Origin: Acidobacteriota bacterium
Lineage (GTDB): Bacteria > Acidobacteriota > Terriglobia > Versatilivoradales > Versatilivoraceae
Length of the DNA: 63,439 bases
Reading direction: 5' to 3'
Assembly: GCA_028875575.1 (NCBI GenBank)
Contig: JAPPDF010000089.1
Coordinates: 1 to 63,439 of the forward strand
Shown here: one piece after another, positions 15,955-59,336 of the stretch
Numbering within the stretch: the first letter of the stretch is position 1
How the letters are laid out: each line of letters opens with the position of its first letter
Notes under the pieces: model-generated
What the model was told of the DNA's origin: nothing
The model's input: only the letters and a program-made list of their open reading frames with translations
Databases searched by the model: none
Translations under genes and position numbers: made by a program

Positions 15955-16170
15955 GCGTTGTAGGTTAGGAGGGAGCTGCGTAGCTGCGGTTGACGTAGGT
16001 CAATCGAGGAATCGTCTCCTACCGGCCAACCTTATGGAGCAGCGTAGCTGCGGCTCAGGGTAGCCCCGGGCGGGAGCCCGGGGGCGTCTGATCCTGCGCT
16101 GCCGCAGCCGCGTACGCGGCGAATTAGTAGCATCGTTCGGGAACGCAGGGCCTTCTCAAAGAAACTATGA
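15955..16170 (-). repeat. Dispersed palindromic repeat, family R5, copy 2 (inverted)
   Basis: Reverse-complement copy of the element at 15530-15715. It shows GGAGCAGCGTAGCTGCGGCT, CAGGGTAGCCCCGGGCGGG and GCCGCGTACGCGGCGAAT in the order expected for the inverted orientation. The two copies face each other about 240 bases apart, upstream of the alpha/beta hydrolase gene. Confidence 0.75.
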
Positions 16171-50412: not shown

Positions 50413-50545
50413 GGATCCCCCAGCTGAACCGAACCAACGACAGGAATCGATAGTATAATTCGCTCGTTATACAATCAACAGAGACGGGGCACCGGAACTC
50501 CTCGTAATCGCAGCCGTGCTTCAGCTTGATGCTCCCCAAGGGTCG

Positions 50546-51811
50546 ATGGCAAAAGCGACTCGAACCCACTGGACGCCAAGGATTCTAGGACTCCTGGCGT
50601 TCGCCCTGGCCTGCGGCATCCTTGCTCCTGGATGCGGCGACCAACCACTGCACTACGTCGACCTGGAACTGATCCTGGACGAGGAGGTGGTCATTGACCC
50701 TTCCGGTCAGGCCTCCGCCAACAACATGGTGCGAGGACCGGACGGCGCCATCTGGATCAACTCGACCACCACCCATCCCGGATTGTTCAAGAGCAGCGAC
50801 CGGGGCAAGACCTGGAGTTCGGTTCCCATCCGACTCGAGGACATCGAGACGCCCCAACATGTCGCCGGGTTCACCGTAACCCGGTCGGGGACGCTCTGGA
50901 TCATCCATCAGGAACCCCCCGACCGATCAGGAGACACACCCTATCCCCGGGATGCCTTTGTCTCCGTTTCTCGAGACCACGGAGCCACCTGGACCAGCAC
51001 CAGGTTGGACTTCGGCCGTTTCGCCCCCCGGGCGCCCCGGGACCCCTACACCAAAGTGGATGTCGCCTGGTGTCATCCCAACTTCATTGAGAGGCCTGAT
51101 GGAACCGTCATGTTCTCCTGCAGCATGCGCTACCCGGACTGGGAGGACTACCGGCAACCGGACCAGTCCCGCCCGGGAATCAGGGACGTGATGGTCCGTA
51201 CCACCGACGACGGCTTAACCTGGGGCGATCCAACCATCGTTCATCCCCATGCCACCGAAACGGCCTACGCCCTGAACCCCAAGCAACCGAACCACATCCT
51301 GGCGGCCACCCGAATTCAGCGCCACGCGTTGCCGGGAGAAGACCCTGAAGCCATCAAGAAAAACCTCACCGGGGTGCCCTATCCACCCAACATTCCCTGG
51401 TGCTACAAGAACGGCCTGATCTTGGAATCGATGGACGGCGGCCGGACTTTCGAGGAAGTTTCCGGCGGGTTGCTGGGCTTCGGAGCCTATCGATGGAGCG
51501 TCGTCTGGACGGAGAACGACGTCGTCCTGCTCAGCAGTAACGGCGGGCAGGAAATTGGAGAGTCCACCTTCGACGACAGCAAAGTCGTGCGCATCAGTCT
51601 GGACGGCGGCCGGACGTGGGCGGACGGCACCGCCAACGGAACCCCCAAGGTCAACCGGGCTCGGGAATTCACCATAGTCCCCGACGACCCGGCCAGCCAC
51701 TGCGTCTCGGCCACCATCGAAGTGTCGCCGAACCGTTTCCTGACCCTGCGACGATTCAGAAGCGGCGACCGGCGTTTGACCGGTGTGTTCTGGCACCTGG
51801 AGAACCGCTAG
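50546..51811 (+). CDS. Sialidase-like Asp-box lipoprotein
   Basis: A 421-residue exported beta-propeller protein. A signal peptide with lipobox-like end (LLAFALACGILAPGC) suggests a lipoprotein. Five Asp boxes are visible: SSDRGKTW, SRDHGATW, TTDDGLTW, SMDGGRTF and SLDGGRTW. It differs from the two cytoplasmic relatives at 0-3.4 kb by being secreted. The ATG at 50546 is preceded by AAGGG; a GTG at 50516 is an alternative. The TAG stop lies inside the left terminal inverted repeat of the element at 51808-52057. Confidence 0.85.
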   Translation: MAKATRTHWTPRILGLLAFALACGILAPGCGDQPLHYVDLELILDEEVVIDPSGQASANNMVRGPDGAIWINSTTTHPGLFKSSDRGKTWSSVPIRLEDIETPQHVAGFTVTRSGTLWIIHQEPPDRSGDTPYPRDAFVSVSRDHGATWTSTRLDFGRFAPRAPRDPYTKVDVAWCHPNFIERPDGTVMFSCSMRYPDWEDYRQPDQSRPGIRDVMVRTTDDGLTWGDPTIVHPHATETAYALNPKQPNHILAATRIQRHALPGEDPEAIKKNLTGVPYPPNIPWCYKNGLILESMDGGRTFEEVSGGLLGFGAYRWSVVWTENDVVLLSSNGGQEIGESTFDDSKVVRISLDGGRTWADGTANGTPKVNRAREFTIVPDDPASHCVSATIEVSPNRFLTLRRFRSGDRRLTGVFWHLENR

Positions 51812-52057
51812 CCCGCATTTCTCGCCAGGGGGCGTGATCATGGCGCAGGCATTTTCCCCTCAGCGCGTGCTCGGGAGCGAAGAGCGTAGCCGTCACTACG
51901 GTCGAGCGAGCATGGATGCGCTGAGGGAAAAAGGACAAGCCAGGGCACGCCCAGCGCCCTGTGTAACCGCAAGACGTACCAATCAGACCCATGAGGTGCT
52001 GAAAATAGATGGACTTTCCTCTATGAATCGAGCGGCCTGGTGAGAAATGCGGGCTAG
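51808..52057. mobile_element. 250-bp non-coding element with 22-bp terminal inverted repeats (MITE-like)
   Basis: Left end CTAGCCCGCATTTCTCGCCA (from 51808) and right end TGGTGAGAAATGCGGGCTAG (to 52057) are inverted repeats with one mismatch over 22 bases. A second inner inverted pair is present: TTTTCCCCTCAGCGC (about 51852) and GCGCTGAGGGAAAA (about 51919). No coding sequence or transposase is inside. The left end overlaps the stop codon of the sialidase-like gene, and the right end is 8 bases from the creatininase-like gene's stop. It could act as a two-way transcription terminator for this convergent pair. Confidence 0.75.
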
Positions 52058-52065
52058 CCCGACCC

Positions 52066-53067
52066 TCAGGCGGGAGGCCAGGGCTGACCTGTTTCGGTGG
52101 CGGCAATCATCTTCTGCAGCTTCTCCACGTAATATTCGACCACCCGGGCGATCAGCTTTTCCCCTTTGGCTGCCGTAGCCAGCAGCGATTGCTCTTGGCG
52201 GGCTCGATCGGTGGCATTCTCGCCTTCCTCGTTGATGCGGCCGTCGATGAAGGTGCGCCCGTCGATGCGCAGGAAGTGCTCCACTTCGGGGGAGAATCCC
52301 GACTCGTAGTTGAGATTGGCGTCGTCGTACTCCTTCATGCTGACCCGGCGTACCCGGTGGGGATGGGCGGCCAAAGCAATGGAAGTCTCGTACTCCTCGG
52401 CATGCGACAGACGCTTCTTGCTTTCCAGGACCGTCTTGACGAAATCCGGTGGGGTCGGCGCCCAAACGGAGTCGACCTCCATGGTCACCCCGAGCTTGCT
52501 GCGCCAGGTCTCTTCCATTTCCTTGAGCGGCTGCTGGTTCCCTCCGTGGCCGTTGAGCACCAGCAGGGTATGGATCCCGTTGGTCTTCAAGGAGTGGAGC
52601 ACGTCGAAGATGTAGTCCTGAAAGGTCTTGCGGCGCAGGGTGATGCTGCCTTTCCGTGACATCCAGTAGGGAGCGTAGCCACAAAAGCTGGGCGGAGCCA
52701 CAATGACCCGCGGGTAGAGCTCCAGGGCAATCTGCTTGGCGTAGAAGGTGGCATGGGCGGTATCTTCCACCAGGGCGATGTGCTCGTTGTGCTGCTCTAT
52801 GGAACCCGCCGGCAGGATGGCCGCCTTGAGCAGTCCGCTATCCAGCAGTTCCCGGATCTCCTTGCGAGTGTTTTCCCACAGCAGGACCCGGTCGGGATCG
52901 ATGCTGCGCCTCAGCCGCTCCATGGGCGCACTTCGGGACGCTGAACCGGATGGCGCCGGCAACGCACCGGCCAGACTCTCGGCCGCCAGTCCCGCGGTGA
53001 GCGTCCCGCCGGCCAGTCCGCCGGCGAGGGATTGCAGCAAACTCCGTCGCGTAATGCCCTGTATCAT
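52066..53067 (-). CDS. Creatininase family protein, Tat-exported
   Basis: A 333-residue metal-dependent amidohydrolase-like protein. The creatininase fold motifs are PAGSIEQHNEHIALVEDTAH (Glu, His and Asp ligands), VLNGHGGNQQPLKEM, and HAEEYETSIALA (the HAGExETS-type motif). The N terminus has a twin-arginine signal (TRRSLLQSLAGGLAGG), so it acts outside the cytoplasm. Substrates of relatives include creatinine and cyclic imides. The gene converges with the sialidase-like lipoprotein gene, with only the TIR element between them. Confidence 0.85.
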   Translation of the reverse strand: MIQGITRRSLLQSLAGGLAGGTLTAGLAAESLAGALPAPSGSASRSAPMERLRRSIDPDRVLLWENTRKEIRELLDSGLLKAAILPAGSIEQHNEHIALVEDTAHATFYAKQIALELYPRVIVAPPSFCGYAPYWMSRKGSITLRRKTFQDYIFDVLHSLKTNGIHTLLVLNGHGGNQQPLKEMEETWRSKLGVTMEVDSVWAPTPPDFVKTVLESKKRLSHAEEYETSIALAAHPHRVRRVSMKEYDDANLNYESGFSPEVEHFLRIDGRTFIDGRINEEGENATDRARQEQSLLATAAKGEKLIARVVEYYVEKLQKMIAATETGQPWPPA

Positions 53068-55341: not shown

Positions 55342-58300
55342 CTACTCCCTCGCCGGCAGGTAGGCACCGTCGCCACTACGTTGCCCCGGCGCCCCGCCGT
55401 CGTTGATCACGCCGTAGGCCAGGAACGGGTTCTGCCCCGACATCTTCTCGATTCGAACGTACCCCTGCCGGGTCTCCGGGTTGGCTCTCAGCAGGATCCG
55501 GTCGATCTGATGCCAGCCCCGGGCCGGGATCGGCTTGGTCACCACCGTCTCCTCCAGCACCCCCGTCTCCCCGTTGTAGATCTCCAGGTGGAAGACGCTC
55601 GGGCTGCCATCGACTTCTCCCGTGTTGACCAGCGCCAGGTTGCTGCGGTTCTCCGCGTTCTGCTGCAGCCCCTCCACCCAGGCTTCCTTGGCGAAGCCCT
55701 CTCCTTCCGGCACTGCGTTGTAGAAGACGCCGTACTGTCCTCCCCCTCCCTGCGAGCTCGTTCTGGCACCGATCACCACCCCGCTCAGGTCGCCTTCTTC
55801 CGCCGTGACGAACAACGCTCCCAGGTAGAAGCCCCGTCTCTCTCCCAGTCCCGCCATCTCCTCTCGGCGCAAAGCCTCCACCAATTCGGCAACAATCTGC
55901 TGCTCCCCGGCTTTCAGCTCCATCTGAAAGCCCACCGTCTTATCATCTCCCTGGATTTGCTCCGACACAAACTCGAAGTTCAGCGTGCTGGGCTCTTCGG
56001 AGAAGTTCGTCACCGTCAGCTCGCTGGTGAAGTCCCGCGTCTCCACGATCACCGGCAGGGTCTGCCTTCTCTTTCCCTCCAGCGAACTCGCCGTCACCGG
56101 GAAAATGAATGACCCGTCCGAGTTGGCCTGGTCGTTGATCACCCCATAGGCGTAGAAGGAAGCCTCTCCTTCCACCCGCTCCACCTTCACGTAGCCGTTT
56201 TCCACTCCGCCCAGAAGCCCCGAGTACTGGTAAAACCCTCCTGGCCCCAGCGTTATGTCGTCAAGCTCCCGGGGACTCGTGTCGGACGCCTCCCCCGAAT
56301 ACACGCTGGTCTTGAGGGTGATCGCCCCCTCCCCCGGAGCCCCCATGTTCTGGAAGGCCACGTTGGAGCGGTCCTGGCTGTTCTGCCTGAGCCCGCACAG
56401 GTAGACCGGCTCACTGAAGCCCTCCTCCTCAGCCACTCCCGGGTAGGCCAGTCCCGCTCTCCCGTCAGGTACTATCGTCGTGGTCCGCACCACCGCCTCC
56501 ACCTCGGAACCCGGCGGCGCCTCCACCCGCAGCGTCCCCAACTGGTTCCCCGCTTCGGGGATCGGTATCCCAAGGCCCGCCAGGTAAGTGAGGGCGTTGG
56601 TTTCGATCTTCTGCCTGCCGGCGGGAAGAACGTCCGACGCTCTCCCGCTTCTCCTTTCAGGCTCGTCCCTGGACGAGTAGGTATAGTCGAGCTCTACCTC
56701 CTTCTCTCCCCGGTTGGTGAGCGTCAGCTCCGAGGTGAAGAAAGACTGTCTCAGGCCCGCCGAGGAGAGGATCACCGGGACGAACAGAGAACCTGTTGTC
56801 AACCGGAAGCTTCCCACGTCCGGGCTCCCGTCGCCGCAGTCATAGGCGAACGTCCCCTCTCCCGACTCGCTAAAGCTCAAACGAAGCTCGCAGGAGGTCC
56901 CGTCATCGTAGTCCAGCCTCACCGTTCCCATGCGCGGGCCCGTCTTCTCATAGGTAATGGTCCCTGATCGGGAGGCGGCTCCCGACTCGGTCTGCTCGAA
57001 GCGGTTGCCCTCTCCGAACCGTAGCTCGAGGGTTCTGGCCGCCCCGCCTTCACCTGCCACGTTCAAGGTCAGCCGTCTGTCCTCCAGGTCGGCCTCGGTA
57101 AGTTCCGCCGGATCATCTACCACTTCTTCCGTGGATTCCGCCGAGGCGACCCTGAGGATCAGGTCTCTGCCACCGCCGTTCGAAGTCGTCACATACAGCG
57201 CCCCGTCGGGGCCCATCATCGGAGTCCGGAGCCGGCCGTAGGAGCGGTCCAGCTCGGAGACGATGACCTGACCGACGAAAGCGCCCTCCGAGGTGAACTC
57301 GAACAGGCGCAGCCGGCTGTCTCTGAGCGTGGCCACCGCCAACCGGCCCTCCCAGACACCCCACTGTTTGCCCTCAAGAAAAATGCCGCCGCTCACGGCC
57401 AGCGTCGGCGATCCTGAGGACCACTTGGCCTCAACGGCGCGGGGGAACTTCACCCGGTCGGTCATGGGTACGGATTCGTTGTAGCCGGGCACCGGATCCC
57501 AGCCGTAATTGCCGCCGGCAACCAGCAGGTTGATCTCGTCGTCCACTCTTGGTCCGTGCTCCACCGCCCACATCTGGCTGGTGCCTGGCCGTAGCGCCAG
57601 TCCCTGCACGTTTCGGTGGCCATAGCTGTAAATCCGTGGAGCCGCCAATGGGTTTGTCTCCGCTCCTGCGCCTGTGGAAGGGTCGACTCGAAGGACTTTG
57701 CCTCCCAATGAGGCCAGATCCTGCGGGATGCTCCCCGAGGCGGCGTCCCCAGTCGCAATCCACAGATAGCCCTCCGGTCCAAAGCGCAGCCGACAGCCGC
57801 CGTGACGTCCGCTGGTGGCCGGGATGCCGCCGACCAGGGGATCGGCTACCCGGGTGGCCGCGGTATAGGTGCCGTTCATGGCCCAGGCGATCACCTGGAC
57901 CTCGGGCCCGACGTGGCCCTGGCAGGTGTAGAAGCGCCGGTTGGAGGCAAAGTCCGGATCGACGACGATACCCATCAGCCCGGTCTCATCGACGGCGAAC
58001 AAGTCTCCCATCTCGGCATTGACCCCGCGAACCGTGCCGTCGGTCCCTAGACTGCTCAGCACGCCCCTTTTCTCAGTGAACAGCATGGTCCCATCGGGCG
58101 TGAAGTCCAGATCCCAGGGGATGGTCAGGCCGGAAACCAGGGTGGAAATCAGCAGTTCGGGCGCAATCTCGGCGATCTCGACCGACTGAAGAGTGAAGGT
58201 CAGGGTGGCGATCGGCTCGTTCGAGAACTTGCCTCTACCCCGAATGCTGGTGATGACTCCCTGCGGCGTTGTGGCTGGGTTCGCCAGTGAAAATTCGGTA

Positions 58301-59058
58301 CCTTCCTCAGTTCCGGCATCCCACGGGTACAGGTTTACTGTGAGCGACGCCATCCATTCCCCCCGATCATCCAGAAGGGAGAGCCCGGATACCCCCACGA
58401 ACCAGTCCGGGCTCGGAGCGATCATGGTGAGCAGGGTGACCCGGGAATGATCGGTGGTAAGCGTGACGTCGTTGATGGTGGACGAACCGGTCGGACCAAT
58501 ATTGCCGCTGCCCAGCAGAACGGCGAGCGCATCGGGTTCGGCTGCCCTGACTTCGCTCGCCAGGGTGCTCGTTCCGCCAAGTTCCGCCATGAACTCGACC
58601 CCTGCGGTGGCCCTGCCGCCGTCCCTCAAGAAGGTAACGCCGGCATTGTGCACCCCTCCGATCAAATTTGTGAAATGCGCGCCTCCCGGAAGGCCGCCGG
58701 AGGTGACCGCAGTGGTCCATAATCCCCGGAAGGTCAGGCTATAGGTGGCTTCCGAGTAAACATCAACCGTCGGATCGCTCTCCGGCGGATCCAGCCACAT
58801 ATTGAACAGCCTATCGGCCCGGCCCTCATCCCTGCTCGCCGCCCTTGAGTCGAACGGATCCGACACTGCCTGCCAGAAGCATGCAAGGGTCGCCAGGGCA
58901 AGAATGGGAACCACTCGTCGAAAGGGATCTGCCCCGACACGACAACAAGTGCAGATTTTGAAGACCAGGTGGAGGAAGGCCGATTGACATACTCCAGGTC
59001 GGGTGCCGTAGCCGGAATGCTTGCGCGGAGAACTCTGAAACTCGATTTTTCTGTCCAT
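55342..59058 (-). CDS. Secreted spondin domain / PQQ-type sugar dehydrogenase / tandem module fusion protein
   Basis: A 1238-residue exported protein. After a hydrophobic signal segment (VVPILALATLACFW, about residues 50-64), residues about 103-250 match a spondin N-terminal domain (ATYSLTFRGLWTT, GGAHFTNLIGGVHN, WFVGVSGLSLLDD). Residues about 302-640 are a soluble glucose/sorbosone dehydrogenase-type propeller (GLTIPWDLDFTPDG, RHGGCRLRFGPEGYLWIATG, HRNVQGLALRP, EINLLVAGGNYGW). Two related modules of about 230 residues follow (756-988 and 997-1238), sharing FTSELTLTN/FTSELTVTN, GLRQNSQDRSNVAF/GLQQNAENRSNLAL and FYAYGVINDQ/FLAYGVINDG. The start is uncertain: I use ATG 59058; a GTG at about 58914 would begin directly at the signal. 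A fragment of a second copy of its 3' end lies upstream at 59337. Confidence 0.8.
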   Translation of the reverse strand: MDRKIEFQSSPRKHSGYGTRPGVCQSAFLHLVFKICTCCRVGADPFRRVVPILALATLACFWQAVSDPFDSRAASRDEGRADRLFNMWLDPPESDPTVDVYSEATYSLTFRGLWTTAVTSGGLPGGAHFTNLIGGVHNAGVTFLRDGGRATAGVEFMAELGGTSTLASEVRAAEPDALAVLLGSGNIGPTGSSTINDVTLTTDHSRVTLLTMIAPSPDWFVGVSGLSLLDDRGEWMASLTVNLYPWDAGTEEGTEFSLANPATTPQGVITSIRGRGKFSNEPIATLTFTLQSVEIAEIAPELLISTLVSGLTIPWDLDFTPDGTMLFTEKRGVLSSLGTDGTVRGVNAEMGDLFAVDETGLMGIVVDPDFASNRRFYTCQGHVGPEVQVIAWAMNGTYTAATRVADPLVGGIPATSGRHGGCRLRFGPEGYLWIATGDAASGSIPQDLASLGGKVLRVDPSTGAGAETNPLAAPRIYSYGHRNVQGLALRPGTSQMWAVEHGPRVDDEINLLVAGGNYGWDPVPGYNESVPMTDRVKFPRAVEAKWSSGSPTLAVSGGIFLEGKQWGVWEGRLAVATLRDSRLRLFEFTSEGAFVGQVIVSELDRSYGRLRTPMMGPDGALYVTTSNGGGRDLILRVASAESTEEVVDDPAELTEADLEDRRLTLNVAGEGGAARTLELRFGEGNRFEQTESGAASRSGTITYEKTGPRMGTVRLDYDDGTSCELRLSFSESGEGTFAYDCGDGSPDVGSFRLTTGSLFVPVILSSAGLRQSFFTSELTLTNRGEKEVELDYTYSSRDEPERRSGRASDVLPAGRQKIETNALTYLAGLGIPIPEAGNQLGTLRVEAPPGSEVEAVVRTTTIVPDGRAGLAYPGVAEEEGFSEPVYLCGLRQNSQDRSNVAFQNMGAPGEGAITLKTSVYSGEASDTSPRELDDITLGPGGFYQYSGLLGGVENGYVKVERVEGEASFYAYGVINDQANSDGSFIFPVTASSLEGKRRQTLPVIVETRDFTSELTVTNFSEEPSTLNFEFVSEQIQGDDKTVGFQMELKAGEQQIVAELVEALRREEMAGLGERRGFYLGALFVTAEEGDLSGVVIGARTSSQGGGGQYGVFYNAVPEGEGFAKEAWVEGLQQNAENRSNLALVNTGEVDGSPSVFHLEIYNGETGVLEETVVTKPIPARGWHQIDRILLRANPETRQGYVRIEKMSGQNPFLAYGVINDGGAPGQRSGDGAYLPARE

Positions 59059-59336
59059 GCTCAATCTAGATCTCTTGAGTCGAAGCAACGTTGCCAAACC
59101 AGTCAAGAATTGCGAATTTCGGATTCCGGATCAAGGCCGAAGTCTGTGGAACCGGTCCCCAATCATCAATCAACACCTTATCAAACTGTCCCTTCTTCCC
59201 TCCGTGGCTTTTCGTACCCCTTCGTGGCCTTCGTGATCCCTCGTGTAACCTCGTGGATAGCTATTTTCCCACGTGGGGAATCTTCGCGGATCCCTTCGCG
59301 AAAGACTCCTTTCCCGGGTCCGATCCCGAGCCTCCC

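Follow-up and report, generated by a model that had tools for sequence, protein, structure and literature searches.

In the ISfinder definition, transposons of the IS1380 family have ends that begin with CC and generate a target duplication of 4-5 bp. The piggyBac transposons are eukaryotic relatives of this family, and the non-autonomous transposons known as MITEs are usually viewed as passive leftovers that retain the ends only. A 4-bp TTAA is duplicated by piggyBac, with CTAA and TTAG as rare variants (PMC10813416). The bacterial elements ERIC and Correia/NEMIS are small multicopy elements with terminal inverted repeats (TIRs) whose transcripts form long stem-loops; some MITEs of this type affect neighbouring mRNA, in the case of NEMIS via RNase III, and the bacterial MITEs listed in the same paper mostly carry TA at their termini (PMC2229807).

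Here, we describe a 242-bp element in an acidobacterial contig of 63,439 nucleotides (JAPPDF010000089.1; this whole stretch is referred to as the window), which is best explained overall, with a rough probability of 0.78, as a MITE that is moved by a transposase of the IS1380 type and carries an RNA hairpin as its core. The element resembles the IS1380 family (PF13701) in its same or near-identical CCCGCATTTCTCACCAG-type ends and 4-bp YTAR duplication, but lacks a transposase gene and has a core dissimilar to the IS1380 elements compared. Some copies use TTAA, as piggyBac does, whereas the family is bacterial, uses mainly CTAG and has no transposase. From ERIC and Correia/NEMIS, as these are described, it is set apart by its IS1380-type CCCGC ends and YTAR duplication, and a core with G-A loops that covaries across phyla is a feature of the present element. 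A MITE with IS1380-type ends is of a known kind; to it is added a covarying core, shared between phyla, that has no Rfam match.

Comparison with other copies places the borders at 51812-52053. The left TIR (51812-51829, + strand; CCCGCATTTCTCGCCAGG) matches IS1380 ends, and the right TIR (52036-52053, - strand; CCTGGTGAGAAATGCGGG), delimited by repeat comparison across copies, pairs with it over 18 bp with one mismatch. A CTAG target duplication of 4 bp lies on either side (51808-51811 and 52054-52057); the same 4-bp duplications are seen at other copies. The original prediction of a 250-bp element with 22-bp TIRs was right about the presence and place of the repeats, but the true size is 242 bp plus two CTAG duplications, and the repeat appears to be 22 bp rather than 18 bp because the CTAG duplication is its own reverse complement. 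Over a longer span, inverted arms of 32 nt (51807-51838 and 52027-52058) are 84% complementary. The second, inner inverted pair that had been predicted was found at 51852-51866 and 51918-51932 and makes up the middle stem of a hairpin of 123 nt (51830-51952). The rest of the body is a variable right part of ~80 bp (51953-52035, + strand), which is missing from ~160-bp relatives. In this part and in relatives, many copies have a box like CAGTCTGT or CACTGTATTT after the hairpin, common to different groups in variable surroundings. No transposase frame is present among the open reading frames of the element, and an internal 86-aa frame was set aside as a coding candidate, since its start lies beyond the element and the conservation is explained by the compensatory pattern.

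The + strand gene upstream (50516-51811) ends at the repeat because its stop codon, a TAG at 51809-51811, lies within the left CTAG, as had been predicted for one of the two ends. The claim that both ends reach stop codons held for this left side only: the stop of the - strand gene on the right (52066-53067; stop at 52066-52068) is 8 bp beyond the right duplication, without contact. As the target contains TAG (or TAA), an element that inserts at a stop codon doubles the stop, and the protein is unchanged. In the window, with a GC content of 62%, CTAG is rare (16 observed against 218 predicted from base composition). According to rough gene calls from a simple hexamer-based caller, a stop codon coincides with the left duplication in 19 of 56 copies in the genus and with the right one in nine, compared with three of the 16 CTAG sites of the window. 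That such elements sit on stop codons finds a simple explanation in the rare CTAG target, whose TAG is doubled on insertion.

The whole of the source genome (4.49 Mb, 101 contigs) was searched. Covariance-model matches to the core indicate ~72 copies, full-length relatives are 80-98% identical and the 11-bp end AGAAATGCGGG occurs in 124 exact copies. The genome-wide search for the ends that had been suggested at the outset was therefore productive, and the target-site duplication to be looked for was present as CTAG on both sides. The duplications of other copies are mostly CTAG, with TTAA at four loci (L012, L016, L019 and L023) and CTAA also represented. All six congeners (6/6) contain the family, and none was found in the other searched members of the same GTDB family. 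In congeners G002, G003 and G006 the orthologous site is empty, the joined flanks matching across the junction with no element between them; congener G005 shares both the insertion and its right flank. Judged by its TIRs, its 4-bp duplications, its ~72 copies, the empty sites and the partner IS1380 elements with related ends, the element is a non-autonomous transposon, and the original identification as a MITE stands. Four contigs of the same genome (C20, C24, C28 and C95) start in a copy of the element, at base 1 or near it, where the repeat has probably broken the assembly.

A scan of public genomes with the end pattern returned at least 120 stretches. Most of the matches listed are from Gammaproteobacteria, Ca. 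Thiodiazotropha among them, with some from Acidobacteriota and one from the Phycisphaerae. In many of these stretches there is an element of 238-243 bp flanked by CTAG duplications. Matches to the core model number about 70 to >130 per genome and, in other genera, most adjoin the left TIR within a TIR pair; a core that occurs outside TIRs was therefore rejected, the exceptions falling at contig ends, in nested joins or among a few degenerate matches. In a third form of ~160 bp (L159, L211 and L219) the hairpin alone lies between the ends. No match was found for a gammaproteobacterial copy among plasmids or for the end pattern in IMG/VR. Two head-to-head hairpins, apparently nested or inverted insertions, were seen at L136 (2677-2921), L174 (5040-5281) and L222 (466-707). 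Other short elements (99-180 bp) that share these ends and have CTAG or CTAA flanks occur in other genomes (L153, L196, L131, L132, L135 and L155), and the core model found no match on L132, L135, L153, L155 or L196.

With CCCGC ends and a 4-bp YTAR duplication, the element fits the IS1380 end definition, and these features together with its partner elements show that it belongs with the IS1380-family transposons. In its own genome and in congeners the Pfam profile PF13701 (DDE_Tnp_1_4) detects fragments only, some of them flanked by ends like those of the element; in the source genome no intact IS1380 transposase was found, only remnants. A helper of the PF01609 type (DDE_Tnp_1, IS4/IS5-like) was rejected, with zero matches in the source genome. 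An internally deleted IS1380 copy in congener G004 (L094) has the borders CTAG-CCCGCATTTCTCACCAG ... CTGGTGAAAAATGCGGG-CTAA. Intact IS1380 elements are found in other Acidobacteriota: L240, in another genus (G107), is 1740 bp long with a 489-aa frame and CTAG on both sides, and L248 (G356) is 1758 bp long with TTAG on both sides. The right end of L240 is identical to that of the element over 17 bp and its left end has three mismatches. Since the ends of the intact IS1380 elements are partly mismatched, on the left or on the right, L240 and L248 remain presumed helpers only; they alone encode a DDE_Tnp_1_4 transposase, which the 242-bp element does not. The autonomous element with the same ends that was to be looked for is represented by L240 in another genus and by the deleted L094 in a congener, but by nothing intact in the source genome. 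From the behaviour of the IS1380 family, we infer that the element would be moved in trans by cut-and-paste transposition. A derivation of the core from IS1380 itself was rejected, as it has no similarity to the five IS1380 elements compared. At L075 (C72:14795-14929 of the source genome) an IS1380 transposase fragment adjoins a long open frame similar to the end of a gene of the window (55342-59106).

The hairpin (51830-51952, + strand when read as RNA; model R1 E=6.8e-26) has a folding energy of -62.8 kcal/mol, compared with -44.5 +/- 3.3 kcal/mol in shuffles (z = -5.6); the - strand gives z = -4.8, the + strand being slightly better. It is closed by a basal stem, P1 (5' arm 51830-51836, partner 51946-51952), and contains a long middle stem, P3 (5' arm 51851-51865, partner ~51919-51933), and two tandem G-A internal loops in which GA-GC-GA at 51875-51880 faces GA-GC-GA at 51904-51909 (all 5' sides on the + strand). 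Cores from Gammaproteobacteria and other Acidobacteriota have different stem sequences with the same architecture and align nearly without gaps. An alignment (A1) of 19 sequences, chosen so that identity within a group is below about 93%, plus three sequences of a different acidobacterial genus, forms a 33-pair structure in 93.8% of cells, with compensatory changes on both sides in 26/33 pairs, including double changes in 6/7 pairs of P1 and 15/15 pairs of P3. When the partner was slid by 1-3 columns pairing fell to 35-48%, and none of 500 shuffles reached the observed covariation. RNAalifold, run on A1 with its own predicted structure, gave double changes in 27/35 pairs. The model built from A1 has 58 matches at loci from other genera, some of them in Thiodiazotropha copies outside the training set; in the alignment of these matches (A2), which is fitted to the model and leans towards it, 30/33 pairs covary. 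The tandem GA/GA mismatches occupy mostly invariant or nearly invariant columns of A1, the 2-bp stem between them (helix 4) covaries and an asymmetric loop, GCGCAGGA / GACCAGC, is kept across phyla. As these alignments show, half of the element body is a 123-nt hairpin kept over two phyla by compensatory mutation.

Among 40 copies in the source genome, the hairpin has a mean pairwise identity of 91%, compared with 61% for the right part. This contrast fits purifying selection on the core, although swapping of right parts by recombination could contribute. Since two phyla have kept both the ends and a complex fold, with drift elsewhere in the element, selection probably acts on the core. The least probable of the readings that we weighed is an ordinary MITE with a functionless core, its structure a by-product of its origin: bacterial MITEs in general form long stem-loops (PMC2229807), but chance ancestry cannot yield 26/33 compensated pairs across phyla while the adjoining 80 bp drifts. 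The pairing might instead be kept by mutation, with template switching during replication copying one arm of a quasi-palindrome onto the other. The stems are long and nearly perfect, and the inverted joined copies L136, L174 and L222 show that inverted recombination happens. Template-switch correction could be the source of some of the paired changes. It should, however, erase the tandem G-A loops and the GCGCAGGA / GACCAGC loop, which have been kept across phyla, and needs an extra assumption to account for the G-U bias described below, making it an improbable explanation of the whole.

Where pairing is equally important on both strands, G-U and A-C oppositions are expected to be equally common. 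The ratio of G-U to A-C is 35:6 in A1 and 144:22 in A2, cell counts that overstate independence because the copies are related; the safer position-wise test favours G-U at 21 of 25 informative positions (p = 0.0009). The excess of G-U over A-C in the core points to selection on one strand, a strand preference that the alignments show to be as expected of RNA, and suggests that the hairpin works as an RNA that lies outside the RNA family library. It is unlikely, by comparison, that the hairpin matters as DNA, either as a cruciform or single-strand structure or as a subterminal binding site for transposase or a host factor that aids IS1380-type transposition. Its place against the left TIR, inside the TIR pair in most matches, and the about 70 to >130 copies per genome would suit such a role, but double-stranded DNA would not be expected to show the G-U excess, which is less marked in the TIR pairs (26:14), read as DNA by the transposase, and the sequence of the core is unlike that of the intact IS1380 elements with which it was compared. 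Very improbable is the suggestion, made in the original prediction, that the MITE has become a two-way transcription terminator. Here the element does lie between convergent genes and has a single terminator-like site (- strand, 51961-51939), but no stem followed by T's is present on the + strand of the element, and the T-run of the - strand site is an arm of the hairpin stem that is absent in gammaproteobacterial copies. The convergent location is not a rule either, being seen in only 15 of the 56 genus copies (34 are tandem and seven divergent).

The reading that we prefer, an RNA hairpin carried by an IS1380-mobilised MITE, would operate as follows. The element inserted in a CTAG, the duplicated copy of which spares the TAG stop of the upstream gene, and would have been mobilised in trans by an IS1380-type transposase through cut-and-paste. 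As the hairpin directly follows the left TIR, an upstream promoter within the element is unlikely, and none was found in the element upstream of the hairpin; with no room for one after the 18-bp left repeat, the RNA would be produced through read-through from neighbouring genes. It would fold as a compact rod in which the two tandem G-A loops may be recognisable by a protein, and might then shield the host transcript or undergo processing, with RNase III as one candidate enzyme, so that an element landing at the end of a gene would do little harm and the copy would survive. The shielding or processing function is the weakest step and is put forward tentatively, at less than even odds. Because known bacterial MITEs such as ERIC and NEMIS reportedly change how co-transcribed mRNA is processed or how stable it is (PMC2229807), a read-through RNA is the most conservative proposal, and the main alternative to it is a function in the element's own transposition. 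The data do not demand a read-through role: the 56 genus copies show no significant preference for the orientation in which the RNA strand would be read through (tandem ++ 32, -- 24).

As in the structured RNA families of Rfam, the structure of the hairpin is conserved by covariation, but the element matches none of the 4227 families at the gathering cut-off; matches at relaxed thresholds were rejected as being at chance level or far below the cut-off. No paper on this core was found among the open-access papers searched in full text, an absence that is weak evidence of novelty. We would give even odds to the proposal that the hairpin represents an unlisted class of structured bacterial RNA, a rod of ~123 nt that contains two tandem G-A loops, is carried as cargo by IS1380-mobilised MITEs in Acidobacteriota and Gammaproteobacteria, in tens to >100 copies per genome, and acts as RNA on behalf of the element or of host transcripts. 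Should the hairpin prove to be an RNA, an abundant class has been overlooked by standard annotation, and the family would offer a way to test whether MITEs survive by making a harmless or useful RNA. Elsewhere in the window, an Acido-Lenti-1 match (Rfam RF01687) is present at 16038-16083 on the - strand, with a score of 43.2 bits.
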